Of a stretch of 64,000 bases of DNA, positions 1 to 64,000 are shown piece after piece. The notes beneath the pieces were generated by a model. That model saw only the letters and a program-made list of their open reading frames with translations, was not told the DNA's origin and made no database searches. The position numbers and the translations under genes were made by a program. Origin of the DNA: Janibacter sp. CX7 (lineage in GTDB: Bacteria; Actinomycetota; Actinomycetes; Actinomycetales; Dermatophilaceae). Each line of letters starts with the position of its first letter. Position 1 is the stretch's first letter. The DNA lies in contig NZ_CP101464.1 of NCBI RefSeq assembly GCF_024362365.1, positions 992,001-1,056,000 on the forward strand. Direction: 5' to 3'.

Positions 1-309
1 AACATCGGCGACATCGGCGGCCTGGCCATCGGGCACGCGGCCTACCGGATCGCCGTCGGCGACGCGGCCGAGGAGGTCGGCGAGGACGGGCTGACCGGCG
101 ACCAGCGGTTCTTCAGCAACTGGGCGCGAGTGTGGTGCGGCGACGCGCGCACCGAGGAGGCCGTGCGGCTGCTGTCGATCGACCCGCACAGCCCGCAGGA
201 CGTCCGGGCCAATGCCGTGCGCAACATCGACGCCTTCCACGAGGCCTTCGGCACCGCCGAGGGCGACGACATGTGGCTCGACCCGCACGAGCGCGTCTCC
301 CTCTTCTGA
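1..309 (+). CDS. M13-family zinc metallopeptidase, C-terminal end (partial)
   Basis: The window opens inside this gene in frame 1 and 102 residues remain. The first residues, NIGDIGGLAI, match the conserved ENxxD segment of neprilysin/PepO-type M13 peptidases; the zinc-binding Glu would be the codon just before base 1. The conserved tail follows: DGLTGDQRFF, NWARVW, the DPHSP motif and a final PHERVSLF. These enzymes cleave oligopeptides with a single zinc; bacterial members are cytoplasmic or cell-envelope peptidases, and location cannot be judged without the N-terminus. The family usually ends in a C-terminal Trp, here replaced by Phe. The next gene starts 4 bases after the stop, so the two may be co-transcribed. 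The family call is firm; the substrate is unknown. Confidence 0.9.
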   Translation, partial: NIGDIGGLAIGHAAYRIAVGDAAEEVGEDGLTGDQRFFSNWARVWCGDARTEEAVRLLSIDPHSPQDVRANAVRNIDAFHEAFGTAEGDDMWLDPHERVSLF

Positions 310-313
310 GCCG

Positions 314-784
314 ATGACCCGCGAGGTGTCGTCAGCGCGTGACCGGGATGCGCTCGGCCGCGCGGAGAACTCGCGTCCACGTGACGGCCTCGGCCGACCC
401 CTGCCGCACGGCAGCGCGGGCGTGGCGCGAGTGGAGGCGCGCGAGCGCACCCCCGACGAGGCGCTGGCCGAGGCCCAGGAGTACCTCGACGCCGAGATGC
501 CCTTCCACGCCCACGAGGTGCTCGAGGAGCAGTGGAAGCGTGCCCCCGAGCCCGAGCGTGCCCTCTGGCAGGGGCTGGCCCAGCTCGCCGTCGGCCTGAC
601 CCACCAACGCCGGGGCAACTCCCGCGGCGCGGTGAGCGTGACGAGCCGCGGCGCCGACGCCGTCGAGCGCTATGTCGCGATCGCCCCCCACGGGATCGAC
701 GTCGGCGGGCTGGTCGTCTGGGCGCGGGCGCTGGCCGCCCGGCCCGACGGCGAGGTGCCGGTGCCCTCCCTTCGCCTGGTCTGA
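314..784 (+). CDS. DUF309 domain protein
   Basis: The protein has 156 residues and matches DUF309. It shows the FHAHEVLEEQWK signature (the family's AHE..E..W motif) near residues 60-70, then LWQGLAQLAVGLTHQRRGN. The family is a small all-helical bundle of unknown biochemical function. The first 45 residues are poorly conserved Arg-rich sequence; the ATG at 314, four bases after the peptidase stop, was taken as start, but a later start such as a GTG near residue 37 is possible. No signal peptide or membrane segment is present. The neighbours (M13 peptidase upstream, ftsY 58 bases downstream) give no functional hint. Confidence 0.75.
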   Translation: MTREVSSARDRDALGRAENSRPRDGLGRPLPHGSAGVARVEARERTPDEALAEAQEYLDAEMPFHAHEVLEEQWKRAPEPERALWQGLAQLAVGLTHQRRGNSRGAVSVTSRGADAVERYVAIAPHGIDVGGLVVWARALAARPDGEVPVPSLRLV

Positions 785-842
785 GGGGAGCGCCCGCCAC
801 GGGTTCGGCGAGGTCGGTGGGGCCTGCGAAGATGACCCCGTG

Positions 843-2282
843 ATGGGAATCGACACGCTGACCGAGTACATCGCCGTCGCGATCGGGCTGCTGGTCCTCC
901 TCGGGGGGCTCGCGGTGGGCCTGCTGCGCGGAGGCCGGGGCAAGAGCAAGGAGCTGCCGCCGGAGCACCGCCCGCCGGAGCGCCCCAAGGGCACCACCGA
1001 CCACCGCAGCGGCACGATCGTCCTCGACCGGCCGAGTGACCACGCCCAGCCCCAGGCTCCGCCTGCCGAGGCGAAGGGGGAGACCCCGCCTGCCGAGACG
1101 AAGCCTGCGGAGCGCCCCGCCGAGCCGGCCGCGCCCGAGACGACCACATCCACGACGAGCGAGCCCGAGACCGCGGACGAGGACGTCACGCCCGTCGGGC
1201 CCGATGCCGGCGCCGAGCGGGCCACCACCGCCCCGCCGGCCACGACCGAGCCGGCCACCGAGACCACGCCGGACGCTGACGCCCCGGTCGAGCCCGAGGT
1301 GCCCACCGCGCCCGAGACGGCCGAGCAGGCCGCCGTCGAGCCCGAGCTCGACACCCCCGCCCCGACCAAGGACCGGATGCGCTCGCTGCGCACCCGCCTG
1401 GCCCGCTCCAACGGCGCGATCGGCAAGGGCCTGCTCGCGCTGCTGTCGCAGGGCAAGCTCTCCGAGGAGGACTGGGAGGAGGTCGAGGACACCCTGCTCG
1501 TCGCCGACCTGGGCATGGAGCCGACGACCGAGCTCGTCGACTCGCTGCGCGAGCACGTCTCCGTCGACGGCACGACCGACCCCGAGGTCGCCAGGGACTG
1601 GCTCTACGCCGACCTGCTGCGCCTCGTCGACCCGACCATGGACCGCGGCCTGGCCGCCTCGCGCGTCGACGGTCGCCCCGCCTGCATCCTCGTCGTCGGG
1701 GTCAACGGCACCGGCAAGACGACGACCGTCGGCAAGCTCGCCCGCGTGCTCGTCGCCAACGACCGCGACGTCGTGCTCGGTGCGGCCGACACCTTCCGCG
1801 CCGCAGCGGCCGACCAGCTCGAGACCTGGGGCGCCCGGGTCGGCGTCCCGACGATCCGCAGCGACCGTGAGGGCGCGGACCCCGCGGCCGTGGCCTTCGA
1901 CGCGGTCAAGGCGGCCGCGGACACCGAGGCCGACGCGGTGATCGTCGACACCGCCGGTCGCCTGCACAACAAGGTCGGCCTCATGGACGAGCTGGCCAAG
2001 GTCAAGCGCGTCATCGAGAAGCAGACCCCCATCGACGAGGTGCTCCTCGTCCTCGACGCGACGACCGGGCAGAACGGCCTGGCCCAGGCGAAGATCTTCG
2101 CCGAGGCCGTCGACGTCACCGGTGTCGTGCTCACGAAGCTCGACGGCACTGCCAAGGGCGGCATCGTCGTCGCCGTGCAGCGCACGCTCGGGGTGCCGGT
2201 GAAGCTCGTCGGCCTCGGCGAGGGGCCGGACGACCTCGCGCCCTTCGTGCCGGAGGCCTTCGTCGACGCCATCGTCGGCTGA
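843..2282 (+). CDS. ftsY: Signal recognition particle receptor FtsY
   Basis: FtsY is the SRP receptor GTPase that docks ribosome-SRP complexes at the membrane. The 479-residue protein has an N-terminal hydrophobic helix (about residues 8-28), a long acidic Glu/Pro/Thr/Ala-rich linker to about residue 175, then the NG domain. The P-loop GVNGTGKTT lies near residue 286, followed by DTFRAAAADQLETW, DTAGRLH near 369 and TKLDGTAKGG near 430, all SRP-GTPase signatures. The membrane helix plus acidic linker is usual for actinobacteria. ATG 843 was chosen because the hydrophobic helix begins directly after it; a GTG one codon upstream is an alternative. A strong terminator follows at once. Its partner ffh is downstream, beyond the nitrogen genes. 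Confidence 0.97.
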   Translation: MGIDTLTEYIAVAIGLLVLLGGLAVGLLRGGRGKSKELPPEHRPPERPKGTTDHRSGTIVLDRPSDHAQPQAPPAEAKGETPPAETKPAERPAEPAAPETTTSTTSEPETADEDVTPVGPDAGAERATTAPPATTEPATETTPDADAPVEPEVPTAPETAEQAAVEPELDTPAPTKDRMRSLRTRLARSNGAIGKGLLALLSQGKLSEEDWEEVEDTLLVADLGMEPTTELVDSLREHVSVDGTTDPEVARDWLYADLLRLVDPTMDRGLAASRVDGRPACILVVGVNGTGKTTTVGKLARVLVANDRDVVLGAADTFRAAAADQLETWGARVGVPTIRSDREGADPAAVAFDAVKAAADTEADAVIVDTAGRLHNKVGLMDELAKVKRVIEKQTPIDEVLLVLDATTGQNGLAQAKIFAEAVDVTGVVLTKLDGTAKGGIVVAVQRTLGVPVKLVGLGEGPDDLAPFVPEAFVDAIVG

Positions 2283-2298: not shown

Positions 2299-2340
2299 CG
2301 AAGGGGCGCCCGCCGCGACATCGCGGCGGGCGCCCCTTCG
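2299..2340. terminator. Hairpin terminator between ftsY and the convergent gene
   Basis: A perfect 20-bp inverted repeat (2299-2318 with 2321-2340, two bases between) starts 17 bases after the ftsY stop and ends 26 bases before the stop of the convergent gene. It can terminate both. There is no T-run, as is common in high-GC actinobacteria. The outer arms are CGAAGGGG and CCCCTTCG, an inverted pair of the heptamer enriched across this window. Confidence 0.8.
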
Positions 2341-3646: not shown

Positions 3647-5421
<1,775 letters not shown>

Positions 5422-5435: not shown

Positions 5436-7808
5436 ATGACCCGCACCGGAAGCGACATGCGATCCGCGCGGCTCGACCTCGCCGGCACCCGGGAGTTCAC
5501 CCTCCCCGGTGCCGGCGAGGCACGCCGGGCGGCCATCGGCGAGGCGACCCGCAGCTGGCTGACCGACCTCTACCGGGAGGCCGTGGGGGAGCGCGAGGGG
5601 ATCGCGCTCGCCGCCGTGGGCTCACTCGGCCGCGGCTGGTCCGGGCCGCTGAGCGACCTCGACCTCGTGCTCGTCCACGACGGGCGCAGCATCCGCCCCG
5701 GCGATCTCACGGCCATGGCCGACCGGCTCTGGTACCCGATCTGGGACTCGGGCCTGGCCCTCGACCACTCCGTGCGCTCGTCCGCCGAGTGCCGGGCCGT
5801 CGCCCGCGACGACCTGTCCGCGGCCGTCGGCCTGCTCGACCTCTCCCTCGTCGTCGGTGACGAGGAGCTCGTCGCCGGTGTGCGCTCCACCGTCGCGCAC
5901 GACTGGCGCTCCGGGGCCCGCACCCGGCTGCCGCAGTTCGTCGAGACGGTGCGGGCCCGTCACCACCGGCACGGCGACCTCAGCCAGCAGGTCGAGCCGG
6001 ACCTCAAGGAGGCCCTGGGCGGCCTGCGCGACGTCACCGTCCTCGACGCGCTCACCCGCGCCTGGCTCACCGACCGCCCCCACGGCGCGGTCGGGCCGGC
6101 CCTCACCCGGCTGCTCGACGTCCGCGACGCGCTGCACGTCGTGAGCGGCCGCGGTCGTGACCGGCTCCTGCGCGAGGAGCACGACGCCGTCTCCGCCCTG
6201 CTCGGCTTGGCCGACCCCGACGACCTGCTGACGCAGGTCTCGAGCTCGGCCCGGACCATCGCCTGGGCGCTGGAGTCGACGATGCGGCGTGCCAGCCAGA
6301 GCCAGCGGGCCCGCACGCTGCGGGTCGGACCCCGCCGACCGACGATGACCCCGCTCGGCCACGGGCTCTTCGCGCACGACGGCGAGGCGGTCCTCGGCTC
6401 GACCCGGCTCGTCGGGGTCGACGCGAGCCTCCCCCTTCGTGCTGCCGTCGTCGCGGCCCGCCACCGGCTGCCGCTCGCGCCGCAGACCCTCGCCAACCTC
6501 GCGGCCTGCCCCGACCTGCCGACACCGTGGGACGAGCAGGCCCGCGACCTGCTCTCCGACCTGCTCGCCGCCGGCCCCGGGCTCGAGGCCGTCTGGGAGG
6601 GCCTCGACCAGGTCGGCGTGGTCGAGCGCTGGCTGCCGGAGTGGACCGCGGTGCGGTGCCGCCCGCAGCACAACCCCGTGCACCGGCACACCGTCGACCG
6701 GCACCTGCTCGAGACCGTCGCCCGGGCGGCGGCGCTCGCCCGCGACGTCGCCCGGCCCGACCTGCTGCTGCTCGCCGCCCTGCTCCACGACATCGGCAAG
6801 ATCGCTGGTGCCCGCGACCACTCGCGCACGGGCGCCGACCTCGCCGACGGCGTGCTGCGGCGCTGGGGCCTGGCCGAGGAGGACCGCGAGGTCGTCGTGC
6901 TGCTCGTCCGCGAGCACCTGACCCTCATCGAGATGGCCACCCGGCGCGACCTGTCCGACCCCGCGACCGCGGCGGCCGTGGGCGACCTCGTCGGGCAGGA
7001 CGCGCAGACCTTCGAGCTGCTGCGGGCGCTCACCGTCGCCGACGCCCGGGCTGCCGGGCCCGCGGCCTGGACCGACTGGCGCGCCAGCCTGCTCGACACG
7101 CTCACGGGACAGGTCCGCGCCCGGCTCACCGGGGTCGCGCCGCCCGTGCCGCCCCTCGCGCCCGCCCCACGGGTCGACGACGAGGCCATCGGCGACGTCG
7201 TCGCCGGCCGACCGCACGTGCGCGTCGAGCCGGGGCCGGGTGGGTGGACGCTCACCGTGCACTGCCGGGACCGGACGGGCCTCTTCGCCGACACCGCGGG
7301 CCTGCTCGCCGCGCACGGCATGACGGTCCGTCGGGCCCGCCTGGCGACCGTCGACGGCATCGCCGTCGACGAGTGGTTCGTCGAGTCGCCCGGAGGCGAC
7401 CCGCCGGAGCCGCTGCGGATCACCGCCGGCCTCACCCGCCTCGAGGCAGGTGACCGTGCGGCGCTCGGCTCCCTCGCCCGGCGCCGACGCGCCCCGGAAC
7501 GGTCCGGGACGGCCGGCGGCGCCCGCGCCTTCGTGCTGCCGAGCGCCGGCAGCGGGGCGACGGTCATCGAGGTGCGCGCGCAGGACCGACCGGGGCTCCT
7601 GCACGACCTCGGCCTCGTCCTCGCGGGGGAGGGGCTCAGCGTCAGGTCGGCGCACATCTCCACGCACGCGGGCCAGACCCTCGACACCTTCTACGTCACC
7701 GACCGCGATGGTCGTGAGCTCGGGCCGGCCGCCGTGGCCCGGGCCGTCTCGGCCGTCATCGACGGGTGTGACGGAGACGGTGACGAAGGGAGCGCCGCGG
7801 GCAGATAA
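5436..7808 (+). CDS. glnD: P-II nucleotidyltransferase/removing enzyme GlnD
   Basis: GlnD adds and removes a nucleotidyl group on P-II Tyr51 in response to nitrogen status. Domains in this 790-residue protein: nucleotidyltransferase with GSLGRGWSGPLSDLD near residues 61-75; a central helical region; an HD domain with LLHDIGK near 449 and a downstream DHSRTGADL; and two C-terminal ACT domains (about 595-680 and 705-780), the likely glutamine sensors. All catalytic motifs are intact. ATG 5436 is the longest start, but the in-frame ATG at 5457 has a better ribosome site (GGAAG six bases upstream) and may be the true start, which would shorten the protein by 7 residues. The stop codon lies in the probable -10 box of ffh. 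Confidence 0.95.
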   Translation: MTRTGSDMRSARLDLAGTREFTLPGAGEARRAAIGEATRSWLTDLYREAVGEREGIALAAVGSLGRGWSGPLSDLDLVLVHDGRSIRPGDLTAMADRLWYPIWDSGLALDHSVRSSAECRAVARDDLSAAVGLLDLSLVVGDEELVAGVRSTVAHDWRSGARTRLPQFVETVRARHHRHGDLSQQVEPDLKEALGGLRDVTVLDALTRAWLTDRPHGAVGPALTRLLDVRDALHVVSGRGRDRLLREEHDAVSALLGLADPDDLLTQVSSSARTIAWALESTMRRASQSQRARTLRVGPRRPTMTPLGHGLFAHDGEAVLGSTRLVGVDASLPLRAAVVAARHRLPLAPQTLANLAACPDLPTPWDEQARDLLSDLLAAGPGLEAVWEGLDQVGVVERWLPEWTAVRCRPQHNPVHRHTVDRHLLETVARAAALARDVARPDLLLLAALLHDIGKIAGARDHSRTGADLADGVLRRWGLAEEDREVVVLLVREHLTLIEMATRRDLSDPATAAAVGDLVGQDAQTFELLRALTVADARAAGPAAWTDWRASLLDTLTGQVRARLTGVAPPVPPLAPAPRVDDEAIGDVVAGRPHVRVEPGPGGWTLTVHCRDRTGLFADTAGLLAAHGMTVRRARLATVDGIAVDEWFVESPGGDPPEPLRITAGLTRLEAGDRAALGSLARRRRAPERSGTAGGARAFVLPSAGSGATVIEVRAQDRPGLLHDLGLVLAGEGLSVRSAHISTHAGQTLDTFYVTDRDGRELGPAAVARAVSAVIDGCDGDGDEGSAAGR

Positions 7809-7818: not shown

Positions 7819-9447
7819 GTGTTCACCAGCCTGTCCGACCGCCTGACCGCGACCTTCAAGAACCTCCGCGGCAAGGGGCGCCTGTCCGAGTCCGACGTCA
7901 ACAAGACCGTCCGGGACATCCGGATGGCCCTCATCGACGCCGACGTGGCGCTGCCCGTCGTCAAGGAGTTCACCGCCGCGGTGCGCGAGCGTGCCACCGG
8001 CGCGGAGGTGAGCCAGGCCCTCAACCCCGCCCAGCAGGTCATCAAGATCGTCAACGACGAGCTCGTGACGATCCTCGGTGGCAACACCCGCACGATCCAG
8101 TTCGCCAAGCGGCCGCCGACGGTCATCATGCTCGCCGGCCTCCAGGGCTCCGGCAAGACGACCTTCGCCGGCAAGCTCGGCGCCTGGCTCAAGGAGCAGG
8201 GCCACACCCCGCTCCTCGTCGCGGCCGACCTGCAACGCCCCAATGCCGTCACCCAGCTCGAGGTGACCGGTCAGCGTGCGGGCGTCCCGGTCTTCGCGCC
8301 GGAGCGCGGCAACACCGGCGGCCACGACGCCGTCCTCGAGTCGGGGGAGGGCACCCGCTCCTTCGGCGACCCGGTCTCGGTCAGCCGCGCCGGCATCAGC
8401 CACGCGCAGGCCCAGCACCACGACGTCGTCATCGTCGACACCGCCGGCCGTCTCGCCGTCGACGCCGAGCTCATGCAGCAGGCGGCCGACATCCGCGCCG
8501 CCGTCGAGCCGGACGAGGTCCTCTTCGTCATCGACTCGATGATCGGCCAGGCGGCCGTCGAGACCGCGCGGGCCTTCGCCGAGGGCGTCGACTTCACCGG
8601 TGTCGTCCTGTCGAAGCTCGACGGTGACGCCCGCGGTGGTGCCGCGCTGTCGGTTGCCGGCACGACCGGGCGGCCGATCATGTTCGCCTCCACCGGCGAG
8701 CAGACCAAGGACATCGAGGTCTTCCACCCCGACCGCATGGCCGGCCGGATCCTCGACATGGGTGACGTCCTGACGCTCATCGAGCAGGCCGAGCGCGCCT
8801 TCGAGCGCGGCGAGGCCGAGGAGATGCAGCGCAAGTTCCTCGCCGAGGAGGACTTCACCTTCGACGACTTTCTCCAGCAGATGTCCGCGATCAAGCGGAT
8901 GGGCTCGCTGAAGTCGATGCTCAAGATGATGCCGGGCATGGGCCAGATGTCCGCCCAGCTCGACAACCTCGACGAGCGCGAGTTCGACCGGGTCGAGGCG
9001 ATGGTCCGCTCGATGACCCCCTTCGAGCGCACCCACCCCAAGCAGATCAACGGCTCGCGTCGCTCGCGCATCGCCAAGGGCTCGGGCGTGACTGTCTCCG
9101 AGGTCAACCAGCTCCTCGAGCGCTTCACCGAGGCGCAGAAGATGATGAAGCAGCTCGCCCGCGGCGGCGGCATGCCGGGCATGCCCGGTGTCCCCGGCAT
9201 GGGCGGCGGGCGCAAGAAGCAGACCAAGCAGCCCAAGAAGAAGGGCAAGTCGGGCAACCCCGCCAAGCGCGCCCAGCAGGAGCGCGAAGCCGCCGAGAAG
9301 GCGGCCGGGCGCGGTCCCGCCGGGTCCGCCTTCGGCGGCGGTGCGGCCGGTGGCGGTGCTGCTGGTGGCCAGGGCGGCCTGCCGGCCGACCTCGACCCGA
9401 GCCAGCTGCCGAAGGGCTTCGAGAAGTTCCTCGGCGGCGGCAGCTGA
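7819..9447 (+). CDS. ffh: Signal recognition particle protein Ffh
   Basis: Ffh binds 4.5S RNA and signal sequences and delivers nascent chains to FtsY. The 542-residue protein has an N-domain, a G-domain with P-loop GLQGSGKTT near residue 108, DTAGRLAVD near 210 and SKLDGDARGG near 268, then a Met-rich M-domain with SRRSRIAKGSG near 415. An unusually long Gly/Lys/Ala-rich tail (about 455-542) follows the Met-Pro-Gly repeats. GTG 7819 gives the canonical start FTSLSDRL and fits the leaderless -10 box. It lies right after glnD, as in other actinobacteria. Confidence 0.97.
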   Translation: MFTSLSDRLTATFKNLRGKGRLSESDVNKTVRDIRMALIDADVALPVVKEFTAAVRERATGAEVSQALNPAQQVIKIVNDELVTILGGNTRTIQFAKRPPTVIMLAGLQGSGKTTFAGKLGAWLKEQGHTPLLVAADLQRPNAVTQLEVTGQRAGVPVFAPERGNTGGHDAVLESGEGTRSFGDPVSVSRAGISHAQAQHHDVVIVDTAGRLAVDAELMQQAADIRAAVEPDEVLFVIDSMIGQAAVETARAFAEGVDFTGVVLSKLDGDARGGAALSVAGTTGRPIMFASTGEQTKDIEVFHPDRMAGRILDMGDVLTLIEQAERAFERGEAEEMQRKFLAEEDFTFDDFLQQMSAIKRMGSLKSMLKMMPGMGQMSAQLDNLDEREFDRVEAMVRSMTPFERTHPKQINGSRRSRIAKGSGVTVSEVNQLLERFTEAQKMMKQLARGGGMPGMPGVPGMGGGRKKQTKQPKKKGKSGNPAKRAQQEREAAEKAAGRGPAGSAFGGGAAGGGAAGGQGGLPADLDPSQLPKGFEKFLGGGS

Positions 9448-26201: not shown

Positions 26202-26238
26202 CGCGGGGCGACGATTTCCCCCCTTCGCCCCGCCGCCG

Positions 26239-42615: not shown

Positions 42616-43791
<1,176 letters not shown>

Positions 43792-47442: not shown

Positions 47443-47488
47443 CGCACCACCCTCCCCTTCGTCCCTCCCCACGGAAGCGAGGTCCGAC

Positions 47489-54082: not shown

Positions 54083-55159
54083 TCAGGACAGCTCGGCGCG
54101 CACCGCGTCGACGAAGGTATCGACGTCGCTCTCGGTCGTGTCCCAGGCGCACATCCAGCGCACCTGACCGGTCGTCTCGTCCCAGAAGTAGAAGCGGAAG
54201 GACTCCATGAGCCGCTCGCTCGACTCCCGGGCGAGGATCGGGAAGACGGCATTGGCCTCGACCTCGGTGGGCAGGGTGATGCCCTCGATGTCGGCGACGC
54301 CGTCGGCGAGGCGCCGGGCCATTGCGTTGGCGTGCTCGGCATTGCGCCGCCACAGGTCGCCCTCGAAGATCGCGAGCAGCTGCGCCGAGACGAAGCGCAT
54401 CTTGCTCGCCAGCTGCATCGACTGCTTGCGCAGGAAGGTCGCGCCGGTCACCCGGTCGGGGGAGAGGACGACGACCGCCTCGGCGAGCATCGCGCCGATC
54501 TTGGTCCCGCCGAGCGACAGGATGTCGACGCCGGCGTCAGTCGTCAGCTCACGCAGCTCGACCCCCAGGGCGGCCGCCGCATTGGACAGGCGCGAGCCGT
54601 CGAGGTGCAGCACCCACCCCATCTCGTGGACGAGGTCGGCGATCGCGCGGATCTCGGCCGGCGTGTAGACGGTGCCGACCTCGGTGGAGTTGGTGATCGA
54701 GACGACGCCGACCTGGGCGAAGTGCTCGTCGCCGACCCGGGCCGGGTAGGCGCGGATGAGCTCGGGCGTCAGCTTGCCGTCGGGGGTGTCGATGACGTTG
54801 ACCTTGAGCCCGCCGACCCGCTCGGGCGCGGCGGCCTCGTCGACGTGGATGTGGGCGCTGCTCGTCGTGAGCACCGACCCCCAGCGCGGCGTGCACGCCT
54901 GCAGCGCAAGGACATTGGCCCCCGTGCCGTTGAAGACCGGGTAGACCTGCGCCGCCGTGCCGAAGACCTCGGAGAGCACCTCGGTCAGACGCGCGGTGTA
55001 GACGTCCTCGCCGTAGGCGACCTGGTGGCCGCCGTTGGCCGCGACGATCGCCGCGAGCACCTCGGGGTGCACGCCGGCGTAGTTGTCGCTGGCGAAGCCG
55101 CGGCTCGACGGGTCGTGGATCGGGGCGAAGGGGGTTGCCTGGGTGGTCGTGTCGGTCAC
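54083..55159 (-). CDS. ltaE: Low-specificity L-threonine aldolase
   Basis: The 358-residue PLP enzyme has FASDNYAGVHPEV, YGEDVYTARLTEVL, VFNGTGANVLAL, HLDGSRLSNAAAALG and the PLP lysine in SLGGTKIGAM, the threonine aldolase pattern. It splits threonine or allo-threonine to glycine and acetaldehyde. Its GTG overlaps the stop of the upstream DUF6421 gene by 4 bases, so the two are translated together; the functional link is unknown. Confidence 0.9.
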   Translation of the reverse strand: MTDTTTQATPFAPIHDPSSRGFASDNYAGVHPEVLAAIVAANGGHQVAYGEDVYTARLTEVLSEVFGTAAQVYPVFNGTGANVLALQACTPRWGSVLTTSSAHIHVDEAAAPERVGGLKVNVIDTPDGKLTPELIRAYPARVGDEHFAQVGVVSITNSTEVGTVYTPAEIRAIADLVHEMGWVLHLDGSRLSNAAAALGVELRELTTDAGVDILSLGGTKIGAMLAEAVVVLSPDRVTGATFLRKQSMQLASKMRFVSAQLLAIFEGDLWRRNAEHANAMARRLADGVADIEGITLPTEVEANAVFPILARESSERLMESFRFYFWDETTGQVRWMCAWDTTESDVDTFVDAVRAELS

Positions 55160-57330
55160 GCGGGGATCCTCTCAGCCGCGGCGGCCTCGGCAGCGCGCGG
55201 GTCGAGGGTGCCGGTGATGCCGCGGGTGGCCTCGATGACGGGCGCGAGCTTCTTGCGCAGCGCCTCGTAGAAGACGTTGAGCGGGAACTCGTCGGGCTGC
55301 ACGAGGTCGGTCAGACCCTTCGGCGGGCCGTCGAGCGGCAGGTGCTCGGCCCCCTTCGCCCAGGCCGACGCTGGGTGCGGCGCGACGTAGCCGGCGATGA
55401 ACTGGTGCGCGGCCATCCAGTGCCCGACCCGGGAGCGGTCGATGCCCTCGCGGTAGAGGGTCTCGACCTCGTCGGACAGGGCGACGACCGCGGCCGGGAC
55501 CTGCGCCCAGTCGAAGGTCAGCGTGTTGTCGGTCCAGCGCATCGCCCCGCGCTTGTGCAGCCACGCGAAGAGCAGCTGCCCGCCGAGGCCGTCGTAGTTG
55601 CGCACCCGGTCGCCGGTGACGGGGAAGCGGAAGAGCCGGTCGAAGAGGATCGCCAGCTGCACGGCGCGGGCATAGGGGTGGCCCGCCTCCGCCAGCGTCA
55701 CGCTCTGCCGGAAGGTGTTGAGGTCGCAGCGCAGTTCCTCGAGGGCGTACATCCAAAAGGGCATGCGCTGCTTGATCATGAAGGGGTCGAAGGGGAGGTC
55801 CCCGTGGCTGTGCGTGCGGTCGTGGATGAGGTCCCACATCGCGAAGGTCGCCTGGGCGACCTCCTGCGAGGCGACGAGCCGCTCGCCCTCGGGCGGCAGG
55901 TCGAGGCCGAGCACCTCCGCGGAGGCGGAGGTCACGCGACGGAAGCGGGCGGCCTCGCGGTCGCAGAAGATCGCGCCCCAGCTGAACTTCGGCACCTCGC
56001 GCACGGCGACGGTCTCGGGGAAGAGGACGGCCGAGTTGGTGTCGTAGCCGGGGGTGAAGTCGATGAAGCGGACCGGCAGGAACATCGGGTTGTCGTAGGT
56101 CGCCTCGACGTCGGCGAGCCACTGGGGCCACATGACGTCGAAGAGCACGGCCTCGAAGACCCGGTCGAGGTTGCCGTTCTGCGTGTACATCGGGAAGACG
56201 GCGAGGTGCTGCGTGCCGTCGACGCGGTGCCGGTCGGGGCGGAAGGCCATGAGCGAGTCGAGGAAGTCGGGCACCCCGAAGCCGCCGTCGACCCAGCGCT
56301 GCAGGTCGACCGGCAGCGCCGCCAGGTAGTCGGCGTCGTGCGGGAAGCGCGGCGCGAGCTCGGTGATCCGCTCGGCCATGACGGCCACGAGCGCGGTCGC
56401 CCGCTCGCGGTCGGCGTCGTCGGCGAGCGACCCGTCCTTGGTCTGCATGAGCCGCAGCTCCTCCACGGCCGCCTTGAGCGCGACCCACGCGTCGCTGCCC
56501 CCCACCTCCGGTCCCTGAGGAGCGAGTCCGCTCTGCGGGCGAGCGTCTCGAAGGGACGCATCCCCATTCCCCGCCCACGTCACGAGGTTCACCCAGAACT
56601 CCTCGTGGTCGAGCTCACCGATCGAGTCGTCCCCGACGAGGTCGGAGTCCGCGAGCACGACGACGCGGCCGGCGCCGTGCTGCACGGTGACGGCGAGCGG
56701 CTGGGCCGCGGGGTGGGCGGTGGCGGAGGTGCGGGCGAGGACGCGGGCACCCGGGGCGCCGGAGGCGTCGATGGTCCCGGCGCGGTAGAAGCACAGCTCG
56801 TCGATGCCGGCCATGACGCCCTGCCCGGGGCCGGTGCTCGTCTCGCCGAGGACCCAGGTCGCATTGCCCTGGTGGCGGCGGCCGCCGTCGGCGCGCTCGT
56901 GGACGAGCGTGGAGACGATCTTCAGGCCGAAGGGAGCCAGCAGCTCGTTGAGGTTGTTGCCGTGGGCGTCGTGGTCGCACTCGCCGAGGACGACGAGACC
57001 GCCCCCCTTCGCCACGTGGTCGGTGACGGCGGTGATCTCGGCGGGGGAGAGGACCGGCGGCAGGTCGCCGGCGACGCGCTCGCTGGAGGCGGCTGCGGGG
57101 TGGGCTATGACGAGGACGTCGGTGCCGGCCAGCGCCTCCGGCGTCAGCTCACCGTCGGTGTGGGCCAGGACCTCGGTGCCGCGCTCGCGCAGGACCGCGG
57201 CGGCCCGGGCGAGGCTCGCGTCGCCGGGGTTGGCGGGGTTCATCCGCTCGGCGAGCTCGGGGTCGATGGACCACGCGCTGCTGTGCGCCTGGTCGAGGAG
57301 CACCCGGGCGAAGGGGGTCGTGACAGTCAT
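55156..57330 (-). CDS. Two-domain protein: GATase/DUF4350-like N-terminal domain joined to DUF6421
   Basis: The 724-residue protein has two parts. Residues 1-255 look like a Rossmann-type glutamine-amidotransferase-like or DUF4350-like domain (RVLLDQAHSSAWSID, GGGLVVLGECDHD, VVVLADSDLVGDDSIGEL). Residues 275-724 match actinobacterial DUF6421 (VFPMYTQNGN, FTPGYDTNSAVLFPETVA, FCDREAARFRR, HDRTHSHGDLPFDPFMIKQR, NYDGLGGQLLFAW); the HDRTHSHGD segment looks like a metal or catalytic site. Function unknown. Residues 259-273 are coded by a copy of the REP-like repeat, at the domain junction. ATG 57330 has a GGAGG site. Co-translated with ltaE. Confidence 0.8.
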   Translation of the reverse strand: MTVTTPFARVLLDQAHSSAWSIDPELAERMNPANPGDASLARAAAVLRERGTEVLAHTDGELTPEALAGTDVLVIAHPAAASSERVAGDLPPVLSPAEITAVTDHVAKGGGLVVLGECDHDAHGNNLNELLAPFGLKIVSTLVHERADGGRRHQGNATWVLGETSTGPGQGVMAGIDELCFYRAGTIDASGAPGARVLARTSATAHPAAQPLAVTVQHGAGRVVVLADSDLVGDDSIGELDHEEFWVNLVTWAGNGDASLRDARPQSGLAPQGPEVGGSDAWVALKAAVEELRLMQTKDGSLADDADRERATALVAVMAERITELAPRFPHDADYLAALPVDLQRWVDGGFGVPDFLDSLMAFRPDRHRVDGTQHLAVFPMYTQNGNLDRVFEAVLFDVMWPQWLADVEATYDNPMFLPVRFIDFTPGYDTNSAVLFPETVAVREVPKFSWGAIFCDREAARFRRVTSASAEVLGLDLPPEGERLVASQEVAQATFAMWDLIHDRTHSHGDLPFDPFMIKQRMPFWMYALEELRCDLNTFRQSVTLAEAGHPYARAVQLAILFDRLFRFPVTGDRVRNYDGLGGQLLFAWLHKRGAMRWTDNTLTFDWAQVPAAVVALSDEVETLYREGIDRSRVGHWMAAHQFIAGYVAPHPASAWAKGAEHLPLDGPPKGLTDLVQPDEFPLNVFYEALRKKLAPVIEATRGITGTLDPRAAEAAAAERIPA
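56512..56556 (+). repeat. REP-like dispersed repeat, copy 3, inside the DUF6421 gene
   Basis: TCCCTGAGGAG, a 21-base spacer, CGTCTCGAAGGGA. The arms GTCCC/GGGAC are inverted. It is read in frame on the minus strand as a short peptide (residues about 259-273) linking the two domains. Confidence 0.7.
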
Positions 57331-57912: not shown

Positions 57913-59376
57913 ATGGCAGCCGTGACGCAGAAGTCAGCCCTCGAGTACGCCCCCACTCAGCTCTACATCGGAGGGCAGTGGCGCGATGCCGGTGACGGCG
58001 CCACCTTCGCCGTGAGCGACCCGGCCACCGGCAAGACCCTCGTCGAGGTCGCCGACGCAACCGTCGCCGACGGCAAGGCGGCGCTCGACGCGGCCGTCGC
58101 CGCGCAGGCCGAGTGGGCCGCGACCGACCCGCGGGTGCGCTCGGAGATCCTGCGCTCGGCCTTCGAGCTCATCACCGAGCGGGCCGACACCTTCGCCATG
58201 CTCATGACCCTCGAGATGGGCAAGCCCCTGGCCGAGGCGCGCGGCGAGGTGACCTACGGCGGTGAGTTCTTCCGCTGGTTCGCCGAGGAGGCCGTGCGCA
58301 TCCACGGCCGCTACGCCGTCGCCCCCAGCGGTGGGACCCGCCTGATGACGATGAAGCAGCCCGTCGGGCCGGTCTTCGCCATCACTCCGTGGAACTTCCC
58401 GCTCGCCATGGGCACCCGCAAGATCGGCCCCGCGATCGCCGCCGGCTGCACCACCGTCGTCAAGCCGGCCCACGAGACACCGCTGACGATGCTCGCCCTG
58501 GCCCGCCTGCTCGAGGAGGTCGGCCTGCCCGCCGGCGTGCTCAACGTCGTGCCGACGACCTCCTCCGGCGAGGTGAGCGAGCCGATCATCCGCGACCCGC
58601 GCCTGCGCAAGCTGACCTTCACCGGCTCCACGCCGGTCGGCAAGAAGCTCGTCGAGCAGTCCTCCGAGCAGCTGCTGCGCACCTCGATGGAGCTCGGGGG
58701 CAATGCCCCCTTCGTCGTCTTCGAGGACGCCGACCTCGAGCGCGCCGTCGAGGGCGCGATGCTCGCCAAGATGCGCAACATCGGCGAGGCCTGCACCGCC
58801 GCCAACCGCTTCATCGTCCACGAGTCGGTCGCCGACGACTTCGCCGCGGCCCTGGCCGACCGCATGGGCGCCCTGACCATGGGCAAGGGCACGACGAAGG
58901 GGGTCGACGTCGGCCCGCTCATCACCGAGAAGGCGCGCACCGGCGTCGCCGAGCTCGTCGACGACGCGCTCTCGCAGGGCGCCCGCGCCCTCGTCGGTGG
59001 CGAGGTGCCCTCGGGCAAGGGCTGGTTCTACCCGCCGACCGTCCTCACCGACGTCCCGGCGAGCGCCCGCGTGCTCACCGAGGAGATCTTCGGCCCGGTC
59101 GCGCCGATCACGACCTTCAGCACCGAGGAGGAGGCCGTGCGCCTGGCCAACTCCACCGAGTACGGCCTCGTCGCCTACGTCTTCACCGAGAACACCTCCC
59201 GGACCATCCGCGTCGCCGAGGCGCTCGAGTTCGGCATGGTCGGGATCAACCAGGGCATCGTCTCCAACCCCTCGGCCCCCTTCGGCGGGGTCAAGCACTC
59301 CGGCTTCGGCCGCGAAGGGGGATTCGAGGGCATCGAGGAGTACCTCGAGACCAAGTACGTCGGCCTGGCGCTCTGA
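57913..59376 (+). CDS. gabD: Succinate-semialdehyde dehydrogenase (NADP+)
   Basis: The 487-residue aldehyde dehydrogenase has QPVGPVFAITPWNFPLAM, the base Glu260 in MELGGNAP and the nucleophile Cys294 in IGEACTAANRF. The NFPLAM and GEACTAANR patterns are those of GabD, which oxidises succinate semialdehyde to succinate. It would complete the GABA shunt-like end of the polyamine pathway 10 kb upstream. A leaderless start is likely. Confidence 0.88.
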   Translation: MAAVTQKSALEYAPTQLYIGGQWRDAGDGATFAVSDPATGKTLVEVADATVADGKAALDAAVAAQAEWAATDPRVRSEILRSAFELITERADTFAMLMTLEMGKPLAEARGEVTYGGEFFRWFAEEAVRIHGRYAVAPSGGTRLMTMKQPVGPVFAITPWNFPLAMGTRKIGPAIAAGCTTVVKPAHETPLTMLALARLLEEVGLPAGVLNVVPTTSSGEVSEPIIRDPRLRKLTFTGSTPVGKKLVEQSSEQLLRTSMELGGNAPFVVFEDADLERAVEGAMLAKMRNIGEACTAANRFIVHESVADDFAAALADRMGALTMGKGTTKGVDVGPLITEKARTGVAELVDDALSQGARALVGGEVPSGKGWFYPPTVLTDVPASARVLTEEIFGPVAPITTFSTEEEAVRLANSTEYGLVAYVFTENTSRTIRVAEALEFGMVGINQGIVSNPSAPFGGVKHSGFGREGGFEGIEEYLETKYVGLAL

Positions 59377-59378
59377 CC

Positions 59379-59879
59379 GTGTCGAAGACCTGGCGCACCC
59401 GGCTGCAGCTGGCCGGGGGAGTCCTGCTGATCCTGCTCGCCGCCTGGATCGTCATCACCGGCGGCACCGGCGGCACCGGGGGCGACTCCTCGCCCGGCGG
59501 GTCGACCACCTCCGCCGCGACCTCGGCGACCTCGCAGACCGAGGCGGGGGGACCCCCTTCGGGCACAGGGGAGTCCGGCTCCACTCCCGACTCCGGGCTG
59601 GACACGATCGCCGAGTCGCAGCTGCCGCCGGAGGGCCGCGAGACGCTCGAGCTGATCCGCTCCGACGGACCCTTCCCCTACGACCGCGACGGCATCACCT
59701 TCGGCAACCGCGAGGGGATCCTGCCCGACCAGTCGCAGGGCTACTACCGCGAGTACACCGTGCCGACGCCCGGCGAGGACGACCGCGGCGCGCGCCGGAT
59801 CGTCGGCGGGCAGGACGGCGACCGCTACTACACGGACGACCACTACGCGAGCTTCGCCCAGATCGAGGAGGGGCAGTGA
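59379..59879 (+). CDS. Secreted or membrane-anchored guanyl-specific ribonuclease (barnase/RNase N1 type)
   Basis: The 166-residue protein has one N-terminal hydrophobic helix (about 11-27), a Gly/Thr/Ser linker, then a ribonuclease domain (about 75-166): LELIRSDGPFPYDRDG, Glu125 in REYTVPTPG, Arg137/Arg140 in RGARRIVGG and His155 in TDDHY, the barnase-like catalytic set. It should cut RNA outside the cell. The helix could be an uncleaved anchor. GTG 59379 lies 3 bases after gabD. Its stop overlaps the barstar-like gene. Confidence 0.88.
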   Translation: MSKTWRTRLQLAGGVLLILLAAWIVITGGTGGTGGDSSPGGSTTSAATSATSQTEAGGPPSGTGESGSTPDSGLDTIAESQLPPEGRETLELIRSDGPFPYDRDGITFGNREGILPDQSQGYYREYTVPTPGEDDRGARRIVGGQDGDRYYTDDHYASFAQIEEGQ

Positions 59880-60995: not shown

Positions 60996-61490
60996 GTGAC
61001 GACTCCCACCGACACCCGCATCACCCTCTCCCGCGTCATGTCCCAGGCCGAAGCCAACCTCCTGGGCAATGTGCACGGCGGCAACATCATGAAGATGGTC
61101 GACGACACCGCCGGCGTCTCGGCCAACCGCTTCGCGCAGGGGCCGGCCGTCACGGCGGCGATGGACGAGATGGCCTTCCTCAACCCCGTGCGCGTCGGCG
61201 ACGTGCTTCACGTGAGCGCACAGGTCAACTGGGCCGGCACCTCGTCGATGGAGGTCGGCGTGCGGGCCGAGGTCGACCGCTGGGACGCCGTCACCGACCG
61301 CGTCCACGTCGCGAGCGCCTACCTCGTCTTCGTCGCCGTCGATGCCGAAGGGGGGACCCGTCACGTCCCCGAGCTGAGCATCGAGACGCCCGAGGAGCAG
61401 CGGCGGTTCCGCGAGGCGGAGATCCGCCGGGCCAACCGGCTCGCCCGCCGCGAGGCCATCGAGTCCAGCCGTCGGGAGGAGAGCGCGTGA
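60996..61490 (+). CDS. Hotdog-fold acyl-CoA thioesterase (YciA/BFIT-like)
   Basis: The 164-residue protein has the acyl-CoA thioesterase signature LLGNVHGGNIMKMVDDTAG (about 21-39), the substrate loop and AMDEMAFLNPVRVGDVL. The C-terminal basic helix extends the usual domain. GTG 60996 gives the family N-terminus; a CATGAT box 6 bases upstream suggests a leaderless mRNA. It overlaps dxr by 4 bases (GTGA), so both are co-translated. Confidence 0.88.
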   Translation: MTTPTDTRITLSRVMSQAEANLLGNVHGGNIMKMVDDTAGVSANRFAQGPAVTAAMDEMAFLNPVRVGDVLHVSAQVNWAGTSSMEVGVRAEVDRWDAVTDRVHVASAYLVFVAVDAEGGTRHVPELSIETPEEQRRFREAEIRRANRLARREAIESSRREESA

Positions 61491-62665
61491 GCACGCGCGT
61501 CACCCTGCTCGGCTCCACCGGGTCCATCGGCACGCAGGGCCTGCAGGTCATCGCTGCCCACCCCGAGCGCTTCGAGGTGGAGGTGCTCGCCGGTGGTGCC
61601 AACACGCGGCTGATCGCCGCCCAGGCCGCACGTTTTCGCCCTTCGCTCGTGGCGGCGGCCGGCGGCACCCGCGAGGAGCTGACCGCGGCGATCGCAGCGG
61701 CCGCGGACGACGCCGGGGTCCCCGGCTACGCGCCCGAGGTCGTCGTGGGGGAGGAGGCCGCGACGATCGCGGCCGGCGCGCCGACCGACGTCGTGCTCAA
61801 TGGCATCACCGGCGCCATCGGGCTGCGGCCCACGCTCGCGGCACTGCGCTCCGGGGCCCGGCTGGCCCTGGCCAACAAGGAGTCGCTGATCATCGGCGGC
61901 CCGATCGTCAAGGACGTCGCCGCGCCCGAGCAGATCGTGCCGGTCGACTCCGAGCACTCCGCGATCGCCCAAGCGCTGCGCTCCGGCCGCGCCGAGGAGG
62001 TGCGCAAGCTCGTCGTCACCGCGAGCGGCGGGCCCTTCCGCGGCATGGACCGCGACGCGCTGCGCGAGGTGACGCCGGAGGCGGCGCTCAAGCACCCGAA
62101 CTTCGCGATGGGGCGGGTCATCACGACCAACAGCGCGACGCTCGTCAACAAGGGGCTCGAGCTCATCGAGGCGCACCTGCTCTTCGACGTGCCGATGGAC
62201 CGCATCGAGGCCGTCGTCCACCCGCAGCAGATCATCCACTCGATGGTCGAGTTCCACGACGGTGCGGTCATCGCCCAGCTCGGGCTGCCGACGATGCTCG
62301 CGCCGATCGCGCTCGGCCTGTCGTGGCCGGAGCGGCTCACCGACGTCGAGACCCCTGTCGACTGGACGCAGGCGCAGGACTGGCGCTTCGAGCCGCTCGA
62401 CGACGAGGCCTTCCCCGCCGTGCGGCTCGCCCAGCAGGTCGGTGCCGCCGGTGGCACCCACCCGGCCGTCTACAACGCGGCCAACGAGGTCGGGGTCGAC
62501 GCCTTCCACGACGGCGAGTGCCGCTTCACCGACATCGTCGACACGATCGAGCGGGTGCTGCAGCGGCACGACGACGCGCGCTTCGACGCGCACACCGTCG
62601 AGGGCGTGCTCGCGGCGGACGCCTGGGCGCGGGACGAGGCCCGGTCGGTCCTCAGGACCGCGTGA
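61487..62665 (+). CDS. dxr: 1-deoxy-D-xylulose 5-phosphate reductoisomerase
   Basis: Dxr makes MEP, the committed step of the non-mevalonate isoprenoid pathway. The 392-residue enzyme has the NADPH loop LLGSTGSIGTQ (about 7-17), ALANKESLI, VDSEHSAIAQ (metal site), TASGGPFRGM and HPQQIIHSMVEF. Complete. It lies upstream of a site-2 protease, as in most actinobacteria. Confidence 0.96.
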   Translation: MSTRVTLLGSTGSIGTQGLQVIAAHPERFEVEVLAGGANTRLIAAQAARFRPSLVAAAGGTREELTAAIAAAADDAGVPGYAPEVVVGEEAATIAAGAPTDVVLNGITGAIGLRPTLAALRSGARLALANKESLIIGGPIVKDVAAPEQIVPVDSEHSAIAQALRSGRAEEVRKLVVTASGGPFRGMDRDALREVTPEAALKHPNFAMGRVITTNSATLVNKGLELIEAHLLFDVPMDRIEAVVHPQQIIHSMVEFHDGAVIAQLGLPTMLAPIALGLSWPERLTDVETPVDWTQAQDWRFEPLDDEAFPAVRLAQQVGAAGGTHPAVYNAANEVGVDAFHDGECRFTDIVDTIERVLQRHDDARFDAHTVEGVLAADAWARDEARSVLRTA

Positions 62666-62677
62666 GACGATCAGACC

Positions 62678-64000
62678 ATGCTGCTCTACGTGCTGGGGGT
62701 CCTGCTTGCCGTCGTGGGCATCGCCCTGTCGATCGCCCTGCACGAGATCGGCCACCTCGTCCCGGCGAAGAAGTTCGGCCTGCGGGTGCCGCAGTACATG
62801 GTCGGCTTCGGCCCGACGGTCTGGTCGCGTCGCCGCGGCGAGACGGAGTACGGCGTCAAGGCGATCCCGCTGGGCGGCTACATCCGGATGATCGGCATGT
62901 TCCCGCCGGCCCAGGACGGGCGGGTGCGCACCACGAGCACCGGGCGGATGAGCCAGCTCGTCGACGAGGCTCGGCAGCAGAGCTTCGAGGAGGTCCGCCC
63001 CGAGGACGAGGGCCGGATGTTCTACCAGCTGCCGATCTGGAAGCGGGTCGTCATCATGATGGGCGGTCCGGTGATGAACCTGCTCATCGCGCTCGTCGTC
63101 CTCGGCGGCATCTGGACGATGAGCGGCATCGCCGTGACGACGACGACCGTGGCGTCGGTCAACGAGTGCGTCGACATCAAGCAGATGGGGCAGCAGGCGG
63201 CCGACGAGTGCACCTCCGACATGCCCGTCGCGCCGGCCAACGAGGCCGGGCTCAAGCCGGGTGACCGGATCACCGAGATCAACGGCCGGCCCGTCTCGAC
63301 GTGGGCCGACGTCCGCGGCGCGATCCGGGCCAACCTGGACAAGCCGCTGACGATGACGGTCGAGCGTGACGGGGCGGCCAAGGAGCTCGAGGCCGACCCG
63401 ATCGTCCTCGACATGCCCGTCTACGACGACAACGGCGCACCGCAGACCGATGCCTCGGGCACGGTGCGCACCGAGCGCGCCGGCTTCCTCGGCGCGAGCC
63501 CGACCCAGGAGATGCAGAAGCAGTCGATCACCGCCGTGCCCGGGCTCTTCGGGGACCAGCTCGGCGACACCTACGGGCTGCTCGTGCGCATCCCGCAGAA
63601 GCTCGTCGGCGTCGCGCAGGCGGCCTTCGGCAGCAGCGAGCGCGACCCCAACGGCCCGATGTCGGTCGTCGGGGTCGGACGGGTCGCCGGTGAGGTCGCC
63701 AGCTCCGACGTCTTCGGCGACACCAAGGACAAGGCGATCCTCCTGCTCAGCCTCCTCGGCGGGCTCAACCTCGTGCTCTTCGCCTTCAACACCGTGCCGC
63801 TGCTGCCGCTCGACGGCGGCCACGTCGCCGGCGCGCTGTGGGAGGCGGTCAAGAAGGGCTGGGCCAGGCTGCGCGGCCTGCCCGACCCCGGACCCGTCGA
63901 CGTCGCCAAGGCGCTGCCGCTGGCCTATGTCGTCGCCATCGCCTTCCTCGGCATGACCCTGCTGCTCGTCTACGCCGACATCGTCAAGCCGGTGAAGCTG
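62678..64000 (+). CDS. rip1: M50 site-2 zinc protease (Rip1/RseP type), 3' end beyond the window
   Basis: Rip1/RseP cuts membrane-embedded anti-sigma factors. The frame is open to the end of the window, giving 441 residues, close to the family's full length. It has the zinc motif HEIGH (residues 22-26) in the first helix, a PDZ domain with AGLKPGDRITEINGRPV (about 190-206), GGPVMNLLIAL and the third ligand Asp379 in LLPLDGGH. It has four membrane helices. It follows dxr by 12 bases. Confidence 0.93.
   Translation, partial: MLLYVLGVLLAVVGIALSIALHEIGHLVPAKKFGLRVPQYMVGFGPTVWSRRRGETEYGVKAIPLGGYIRMIGMFPPAQDGRVRTTSTGRMSQLVDEARQQSFEEVRPEDEGRMFYQLPIWKRVVIMMGGPVMNLLIALVVLGGIWTMSGIAVTTTTVASVNECVDIKQMGQQAADECTSDMPVAPANEAGLKPGDRITEINGRPVSTWADVRGAIRANLDKPLTMTVERDGAAKELEADPIVLDMPVYDDNGAPQTDASGTVRTERAGFLGASPTQEMQKQSITAVPGLFGDQLGDTYGLLVRIPQKLVGVAQAAFGSSERDPNGPMSVVGVGRVAGEVASSDVFGDTKDKAILLLSLLGGLNLVLFAFNTVPLLPLDGGHVAGALWEAVKKGWARLRGLPDPGPVDVAKALPLAYVVAIAFLGMTLLLVYADIVKPVKL

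Follow-up and report, generated by a model that had tools for sequence, protein, structure and literature searches.

Why is the heptamer CGAAGGG so strongly over-represented on both strands of a 64,000-nucleotide stretch of the chromosome of Janibacter sp. CX7 (family Dermatophilaceae; contig NZ_CP101464.1, positions 992,001 to 1,056,000; hereafter the window)? The most plausible answer is that its extended form, with the core word CGAAGGGG and the consensus G-R-CGAAGGG-R-G (derived from 464 kb of the genome), serves Janibacter and Marihabitans as a self-tag in DNA uptake and represents one dialect of an uptake-sequence system shared by most of the family's sampled genera, a reading that is based on genome comparisons and to which we assign a probability of about two in three. 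Among the three roles considered in the preliminary description of the window, that of an uptake-signal-like sequence is favoured by the density of the word, its presence on both strands, its intergenic excess, its arrangement in hairpin pairs, its reduced density next to island integrases and, above all, the use of different words in its place by sister genera. An element similar to the highly iterated palindrome HIP1 fits less well, given that the word is not a palindrome and has variants specific to lineages, and a nucleoid-protein site predicts neither the hairpins nor the dialects.

The window contains 85 exact copies of CGAAGGG (43 on the forward and 42 on the reverse strand), which confirms the initial count by eye of about 42 and 40 and makes the phenomenon larger than claimed. 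Arithmetic with base frequencies yields the same expectation as before, about 8 copies per strand; 100 dinucleotide-preserving shuffles of the window contain 11.5 copies in total on average (maximum 23), and a third-order Markov model predicts 31.8. The eighth base, described as nearly always G or A, is G in 59, A in 17, C in 8 and T in 1 of the copies, and the ninth base is G in 58 of the 85.

The excess extends to the entire genome. In a 464-kb sample consisting of the window and 20 stretches of 20 kb from the same genome (L111–L130; L stands for locus, G for genome and g for genus throughout), CGAAGGGG occurs 417 times, and the 9-mer CGAAGGGGG reaches 20 times its third-order Markov expectation; relative to six loci of relatives, no single-base variant of the word except that with A at position 8 has a comparable excess. 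The whole chromosome (3,229,343 bases in one contig) contains 2,588 copies of CGAAGGGG (1273 + 1315; 0.80 per kb) versus 124 copies (57 + 67) of the word read backwards, which served as a control. Among the 449 genes predicted in the sample with a simple custom finder, CGAAGGGG is present in 291 coding copies versus 57.7 ± 6.2 (maximum 75) in 100 synonymous-codon shuffles, which preserve each protein and its codon usage, and CGAAGGG in 415 versus 137.4 ± 7.9; the reversed control word is at expectation (18 vs. 16.7). When words with an expectation of at least 15 are ranked by their over-representation against six such shuffles, CGAAGGG is the top 7-mer and CGAAGGGG the top 8-mer. Codon bias and composition are rejected as the cause of the word by these shuffles and by the low counts in relatives. 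The checks proposed in the preliminary description hence left its central observation standing: neither the Markov model nor the codon shuffle predicts a similar count, and the enrichment is present also elsewhere in the genome.

The comparison with sister genera, likewise suggested earlier, restricts the word to a single clade. CGAAGGGG is enriched in all 16 Janibacter genomes (1,198 to 2,588 copies). In a survey of 119 genomes from 53 genera of the family, it reaches 1,813–3,180 copies in the five representatives of Janibacter and in all three of Marihabitans (g38, taken in a wide sense that includes J. melonis), and is not enriched in the other 111 genomes from 51 genera (at most 396 copies, with reversed controls of up to 251) or in 184 genomes from 19 other families of the order (at most 457 copies; reversed control there 259). 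The same pattern is seen in named loci of 12–22 kb, where the density of CGAAGGGG is 0.54–0.98 per kb in ten loci of Janibacter and Marihabitans and 0–0.19 per kb in six loci of Kribbia, J. massiliensis, Phycicoccus (two), Tetrasphaera, and Knoellia. The ComM protein encoded in the window shares 93% identity with that of J. indicus, 81–84% with those of eight other loci from Janibacter proper and J. melonis, and 76% with that of Marihabitans asiaticum, values that place the window in Janibacter.

Elsewhere in the family, the place of CGAAGGGG is taken by different words. When relatives were scanned for 8-mers in an unbiased manner, CGGCATAC emerged, with 16–20 copies versus about 1 expected in Knoellia, Tetrasphaera, and three further genera. 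At a genome-wide threshold of at least 900 copies and at least 2.5 times the reversed control, CGGCATAC is enriched in 30 of the 53 genera, with up to 4,724 copies per genome, but has only 7–41 copies in the eight genomes of Janibacter and Marihabitans; outside the family, it is not enriched (at most 177 copies in 273 genomes of 19 families, with similar controls). Its excess over the synonymous shuffle is about 9- to 14-fold in the four scorable samples (G112, 14 vs. 1.6; G066, 14 vs. 1.0; G082, 13 vs. 1.0; Knoellia, 13 vs. 1.4), a comparison that leaves out Tetrasphaera, where no genes were predicted. A second 8-mer scan yielded the candidates CGGCGTAC and CGGCATCC, which are both partly codon-driven; in Microbacterium, there are 26 coding copies of CGGCATCC versus 11.3 in the codon shuffle. 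The counts of these two words cover the family, those of CGAAGGGG and CGGCATAC also other families of the order. CGGCGTAC is present in 1,125–4,185 copies in six genera (g3, in two of four genomes; g24; g25; g40, in all three; g48, in two of three; and G083 of g26), versus 39–785 in the other genomes searched, and CGGCATCC in 2,099–4,480 copies in g17 (both genomes), g27, and g44 (all four), versus 241–1,040 elsewhere and a marginal 1,336 in G016 of g2. The sister words, with about 900 to 4,700 copies per genome, are clustered on the tree and nearly mutually exclusive, and 39 of the 53 sampled genera clearly carry one of the four words.

Only two genomes, G058 and G092 of g44, hold two words with more than 1,000 copies and more than four times the reversed control each; their mixture of CGGCATAC and CGGCATCC, set beside the 3,619–4,480 copies of CGGCATCC and 288–361 of CGGCATAC in G115 and G129 of the same genus, is perhaps a dialect switch in progress. 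A recent switch is represented by G083, whose congeners G040 and G109 use CGGCATAC; besides CGGCGTAC, its loci L184–L186 contain 29 copies of CGCCGTAC versus 7.8 in the codon shuffle. In G071, from a genus without any of the four words, CCGCATCG is a possible further dialect (41 copies vs. 9.6 in L140, L159, L169, and L172). With an excess of about fourfold that derives from loci only, neither CCGCATCG nor CGCCGTAC is claimed as a dialect.

The distribution of the words follows the phylogeny of the import protein ComEC. In a maximum-likelihood tree of 44 family members, the seven genomes with CGAAGGGG form one clade (100/100), which is nested in a group (91/93) of 27 members, 14 of them with CGGCATAC. 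This placement makes it probable that CGAAGGGG replaced CGGCATAC once. CGGCATCC also forms a single clade (95/92); CGGCGTAC requires two origins. The word labels need 9 changes on the tree, versus 21.8 when shuffled. This match between dialect and phylogeny concerns the ComEC tree only, whose deep forks are weak, from which G026 dropped out, and in which G118 is a fragment whose branch is very long; the label CGGCATAC was given to G116 despite only 404 copies, and the label CGGCATCC to the two-word genomes G058 and G092.

At individual sites aligned with those of the window, the word is retained in 63 of 107 cases across the ten loci of Janibacter and Marihabitans. Retention per locus is 38–73%, versus 20–50% for control 8-mers of like composition. 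In the six loci of relatives without CGAAGGGG, the word is retained at 2 of 40 sites (control 8-mers, 11–20%), and of the 38 sites that changed, 30 have one to three differing positions. The simplest reading of these alignments is that the sites were gained within the clade by point changes and thereafter kept more than other DNA.

Because the contig begins with genes identified by eye as dnaA, dnaN, and recF, the stretches of the sample could be assigned to replichores, with the terminus taken as opposite the origin. CGAAGGGG has 222 copies on the leading and 195 on the lagging strand (p = 0.20) and therefore no replication-strand bias; for the window, the absence of a strong strand bias had already been noted. 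Its coding copies are divided equally between sense (146) and antisense (145), which rejects a ribosome-binding site or other RNA element and fits the earlier view that Shine-Dalgarno motifs and the edges of repetitive extragenic palindromic (REP) repeats account for only a few copies. The claim that copies fall in all reading frames holds only in part: several frames are used, but the spread is uneven, with 246 of the 291 coding copies in three of the six frame and strand settings (105 as P-F in antisense reading, 89 as x-K-G and 52 as x-E-G) and only 5 in the setting that requires the codons CGA AGG. There is no bias between the two halves of genes in the sample.

Genes hold 291 of the 417 copies, and intergenic regions are fourfold denser (2.79 vs. 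0.70 per kb). The gaps between copies are near random (coefficient of variation 0.95) except for an excess at 20–40 bp (25 vs. 7.3 expected). Among the 41 pairs within 60 bp, 29 have the orientation +-, 10 the orientation -+, and 2 the same direction; among intergenic regions, +- pairs occur in 10 of 57 that are convergent, in 8 of 166 that are co-directional, and in 4 of 70 that are divergent. Long hairpins are predicted for each of three pairs selected for folding (z -8.2 to -10.7), including the pair at positions 2296–2345 of the window (-47.8 kcal/mol, z -8.2). By placement and fold, the inverted pairs of CGAAGGGG, and of this word only, are predicted to be terminator-like.

The word is scarce in putatively foreign DNA. 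In the genome of the window, the two integrase matches both belong to the XerC/XerD score class; islands were therefore studied in six relatives, from which 17 stretches with an integrase and three as controls were taken, and 13 junctions between an integrase and a tRNA gene, from five genomes, were usable. Counted over 6 kb, CGAAGGGG occurs 21 times in 64.2 kb (0.33 per kb) on the side of the integrase, compared with 62 times in 78.0 kb beyond the tRNA (0.79 per kb; p = 2.4e-4); the deficit persists at spans of 4 kb (p = 0.042) and 8 kb (p = 1.3e-5). These figures include two exceptions, namely L196, in which the relation is reversed (4 vs. 1), and L207, which has a short integrase fragment and many copies on either side (7 vs. 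8). Six integrase stretches without a tRNA (L193, L195, L197, L200, L204, and L205; 3–13 copies per 20 kb) were left out.

Genes for DNA import are widespread in the family. ComEC is encoded in 115 of the 119 genomes, and ComEA, which by eye combines a membrane anchor with SLBB-like and helix-hairpin-helix parts, adjoins ComEC in 17 of the 21 ComEC loci that were read; one of the other four has no recognised ComEC. The accompanying Flp/Tad locus consists of TadZ, TadA, TadB, TadC, Flp, TadE, and a TadG-like protein. A tally of 46 such loci, which leaves out the second Tad locus in L162–L164, includes 34 from word-bearing genomes, two of which (L218 and L239) are cut by the contig end before Flp. 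Of the 32 uncut loci, 30 encode Flp and 28 all seven proteins; the stretches from G083 and G050 stop shortly after TadE. As a separate observation, no Flp was found after TadC in G017 and G097 (L220 and L221), two of the three low-count genomes scored; in L220, TadC is followed by other genes that appear ABC-transporter-like by eye. In both genomes, CGGCGTAC, the word carried by their genus, has a low count (345 and 347 copies vs. 1,125 and 2,529).

A mechanism consistent with these observations would begin with competent cells whose Flp/Tad pilus captures DNA, which then enters via ComEA and ComEC, as it does in Micrococcus luteus. DNA bearing the word would be favoured by a receptor on the cell surface, which is probably a minor pilin; owing to this preference, tagged alleles would replace untagged alleles by transformation. 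The resulting drive, bounded by codon and protein constraints, would scatter the word over the core genome. It would settle where it is least harmful, that is, in intergenic regions and common codon pairs, and islands would stay poorer. A change of receptor specificity in a lineage would entail a change of the word and thus give rise to dialects. Natural transformation, word preference, receptor and drive are what we infer from a profile that, to our knowledge, matches DNA uptake sequences and nothing else. On balance, it also appears probable that the family possesses an independent actinomycetotal system of uptake-sequence dialects operating via Flp/Tad and comprising four or more words, and that on the branch of Janibacter and Marihabitans the almost unrelated CGAAGGGG took the place of CGGCATAC.

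Several results weigh against an uptake function. No transformation data for these organisms were found in the open-licence literature. Fourteen of the 53 sampled genera lack clear enrichment of any of the four words, and in the samples taken, the three words other than CGAAGGGG have no clear excess of close pairs (6 vs. 4.5, 3 vs. 2.8, and 5 vs. 3.9 expected). G047 and G109, with thousands of copies of CGGCATAC, have no Flp in the stretch that was read. Conversely, all nine Tad loci of genomes without the four words encode Flp, TadE, and TadG, and genes for ComEC and Tad proteins are equally common in family members with and without words; the machinery therefore does not predict which genomes carry a word, and there is no general correlation between words and Flp/Tad genes among the 46 loci. 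No clade-specific receptor was found beside comEA and comEC or in the Tad locus, nor was a counterpart of the ComP of Neisseriaceae found in the Tad and Com loci compared. When Tad and Com proteins were compared across the dialect switches in g26 and g44, identities across the two words of g44 were 59–60% for TadE, 47–52% for TadG, and 67–69% for TadA; within Janibacter, which has one word, they were 67–73%, 56–68%, and 78–79%. TadE and TadG thus outpace TadA also within a single dialect, and the comparison singles out no receptor.

A role in genome architecture likewise counts against uptake, but appears unlikely. The word would then be a chromosome-organisation or nucleoid-protein site, recognised by a binding protein that needs many spread sites and whose specificity shifted between lineages. 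In its favour, the word is spread genome-wide on both strands in a lineage-specific manner, and there is a weak trend for CGAAGGGG to be denser near the origin (Spearman -0.40, p = 0.07, 21 stretches). However, single-base dialects and near mutual exclusivity are explained more easily by drive than by a wholesale relocation of sites, hairpin pairs are unexpected, and the gaps outside the close pairs are near random.

Quite improbable is a DNA-modification word, be it HIP1-like, linked to a methyltransferase, or a mark by which a defence nuclease recognises self. HIP1, like Chi and the FtsK-orienting polar sequences (KOPS), shares with the Janibacter word the nature of a short motif over-represented genome-wide; its density is similar, and lineage-specific words would suit shifting methyltransferase specificities. 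But HIP1 is palindromic, whereas the Janibacter word is not and accepts a purine at position 8, and neither hairpin pairs nor a fourfold intergenic enrichment are known traits of HIP1. An identity with HIP1, a palindromic octamer, is rejected by the consensus itself.

The chances are slim for a recombination hot-spot of the Chi type, which would shield DNA against the exonuclease of the same cell. Within the G-rich CGAAGGGG lies GAAGGGG, which differs at a single base from the Chi of Staphylococcus aureus (GAAGCGG), and scarcity beside island integrases would be expected of Chi too. By contrast, Chi and KOPS are strand-biased, and the replichore count rejects strand-polar elements of this kind, including architecture-imparting sequences (AIMS); moreover, richness in G is not shared by sister words such as CGGCATAC, and the over-representation is well above the level known for Chi. 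Ordinary composition, codon bias, or a dispersed terminator or REP element is refuted as the whole explanation, for although the three main coding settings use common codons and some intergenic copies form hairpins, the synonymous shuffle yields 58 instead of 291 coding copies, most related genomes have about one-tenth of the count, and the majority of copies are genic, with both senses equal.

Sequence-specific uptake has been placed in several species of Pasteurellaceae and Neisseriaceae, both of which are Gram-negative, in a review (PMC5031613). Like the DNA uptake sequences (DUS) of Neisseriaceae, as portrayed in PMC3630211, the Janibacter word is short and non-palindromic, is present on both strands in thousands of copies, and forms inverted pairs, which in Neisseria are associated with terminators; in both cases, dialects track phylogeny and differ by one or few bases. 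The difference between the Janibacter word and its sister word, which involves most positions, exceeds those between the Neisseria dialects covered there. With the uptake signal sequences (USS) of Pasteurellaceae, the system shares subclade-specific variants and a similar density (800 per Mb, compared with about 500–800 for Hin-USS and 200–500 for Apl-USS in PMC12616744). Unlike in both families, the words belong to other organisms, namely a high-GC Gram-positive family with Flp/Tad genes, and differ in sequence; USS-dependent uptake has been measured, whereas that of DNA with the Janibacter word is predicted. From the same phylum, Micrococcus luteus, which transforms with a gene set of the Flp/Tad type and Com genes, shares ComEA, ComEC, TadA–C, Flp, and TadE-type pilins, according to PMC6370729; the term 'uptake sequence' does not occur in the main text of another study of this species (PMC4322843). 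Among open-licence papers, no report of such an uptake-word system was found for the family or phylum.

If this interpretation is correct, sequence-specific uptake would have an independent Gram-positive origin, with another pilus and no outer membrane, and would not be tied to an outer-membrane step or to type IVa pili. Natural transformation would be predicted in dozens of genera, for which the addition of the word to donor DNA would provide a genetic tool. Several single-base dialect switches would allow the receptor to be mapped by comparison, and molecular drive versus selection for self-DNA as the basis for the spread of uptake words would become testable in a new group.

Features of the window and of further loci in the sample. 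The rows for CGAAGGGG are the 59 heptamer copies with G as the eighth base; in the other 26 of the 85 copies, the eighth base is not G. Genes are predicted, with (-) as noted.
Feature	Position	Strand	Context
CGAAGGGG	1072..1079	+	gene 843..2282
CGAAGGGG	2299..2306	+	intergenic, hairpin pair left arm
CGAAGGGG	2333..2340	-	intergenic, hairpin pair right arm, between convergent genes
CGAAGGGG	3910..3917	-	gene 3713..5086
CGAAGGGG	6432..6439	-	gene 5436..7808
CGAAGGGG	9018..9025	-	gene 7819..9447
CGAAGGGG	10060..10067	-	gene 9455..10255
CGAAGGGG	11967..11974	+	gene 11002..12081
CGAAGGGG	13284..13291	+	gene 13222..13683
CGAAGGGG	13731..13738	-	intergenic
CGAAGGGG	15187..15194	-	gene 14741..15289
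CGAAGGGG	15276..15283	+	gene 14741..15289
CGAAGGGG	15826..15833	+	gene 15293..16492
CGAAGGGG	16820..16827	+	gene 16522..16899 (-)
CGAAGGGG	17769..17776	-	gene 17476..18159
CGAAGGGG	17976..17983	-	gene 17476..18159
CGAAGGGG	20306..20313	-	intergenic
CGAAGGGG	20460..20467	+	gene 20347..20718
comM gene	20715..22256	+	putative, YifB type by eye
CGAAGGGG	21164..21171	+	comM gene
CGAAGGGG	24547..24554	-	gene 24536..25024
CGAAGGGG	24658..24665	-	gene 24536..25024
CGAAGGGG	26220..26227	-	intergenic
CGAAGGGG	28308..28315	+	gene 28261..28842 (-)
CGAAGGGG	29023..29030	+	gene 28862..29440 (-)
CGAAGGGG	31119..31126	-	intergenic
CGAAGGGG	32159..32166	-	gene 31956..32513
CGAAGGGG	32739..32746	+	gene 32515..33390, inverted-pair arm
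CGAAGGGG	32757..32764	-	gene 32515..33390, inverted-pair arm
CGAAGGGG	33984..33991	+	gene 33509..34138
CGAAGGGG	35070..35077	+	gene 34477..35700; facing 7-mer copy 35085-35091 (-)
CGAAGGGG	36568..36575	-	intergenic
CGAAGGGG	36624..36631	+	intergenic
CGAAGGGG	39280..39287	+	gene 39092..39889
CGAAGGGG	40464..40471	-	gene 39886..41181
CGAAGGGG	42009..42016	+	gene 41185..42336 (-)
CGAAGGGG	42246..42253	-	gene 41185..42336 (-)
CGAAGGGG	42681..42688	-	gene 42676..43791
CGAAGGGG	43863..43870	+	intergenic; facing 7-mer copy 43853-43859 (-)
CGAAGGGG	44478..44485	-	gene 43968..45356 (-)
CGAAGGGG	46263..46270	+	gene 45997..47442
CGAAGGGG	47454..47461	-	intergenic
CGAAGGGG	49648..49655	-	gene 48748..49923
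CGAAGGGG	49872..49879	+	gene 48748..49923
CGAAGGGG	49945..49952	-	intergenic
CGAAGGGG	51804..51811	+	gene 51669..52958
CGAAGGGG	52349..52356	-	gene 51669..52958
CGAAGGGG	53190..53197	+	gene 53077..53925 (-)
CGAAGGGG	53316..53323	+	gene 53077..53925 (-)
CGAAGGGG	55126..55133	+	gene 54083..55159 (-)
CGAAGGGG	55351..55358	-	gene 55156..57330 (-)
CGAAGGGG	55788..55795	+	gene 55156..57330 (-)
CGAAGGGG	57004..57011	-	gene 55156..57330 (-)
CGAAGGGG	57309..57316	+	gene 55156..57330 (-)
CGAAGGGG	58707..58714	-	gene 57913..59376
CGAAGGGG	58895..58902	+	gene 57913..59376
CGAAGGGG	59277..59284	-	gene 57913..59376
CGAAGGGG	59313..59320	+	gene 57913..59376
CGAAGGGG	59554..59561	-	gene 59379..59879
CGAAGGGG	61346..61353	+	gene 60996..61490
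CCAATGCC	209, 8240, 39834	+	
CCAATGCC	12317, 41464, 53809, 54248	-	
ACCCTAGGGT repeat	L111:9734, L112:17288, L128:8167 and 14 more in L111-L130		absent from window

Three further features of the 464-kb sample concern other words. In coding sequence, AGCGTA (0 vs. 34.5 in the codon shuffle), GTATCA (0 vs. 22.2), and CCCCCCC (3 vs. 130.5) are nearly absent, possibly reflecting the avoidance of restriction or slippage. CCAATGCC reaches 11 times its third-order Markov expectation, and all 30 of the copies listed are located inside predicted genes. A REP-like family of palindromic repeats of 30-odd bases around ACCCTAGGGT, which by eye read roughly AACTCTGCARRACCCTAGGGTYYTGCAGAGTT, occupies 17 places, 15 of them intergenic, and is four times paired at a distance of 42–43 bp.

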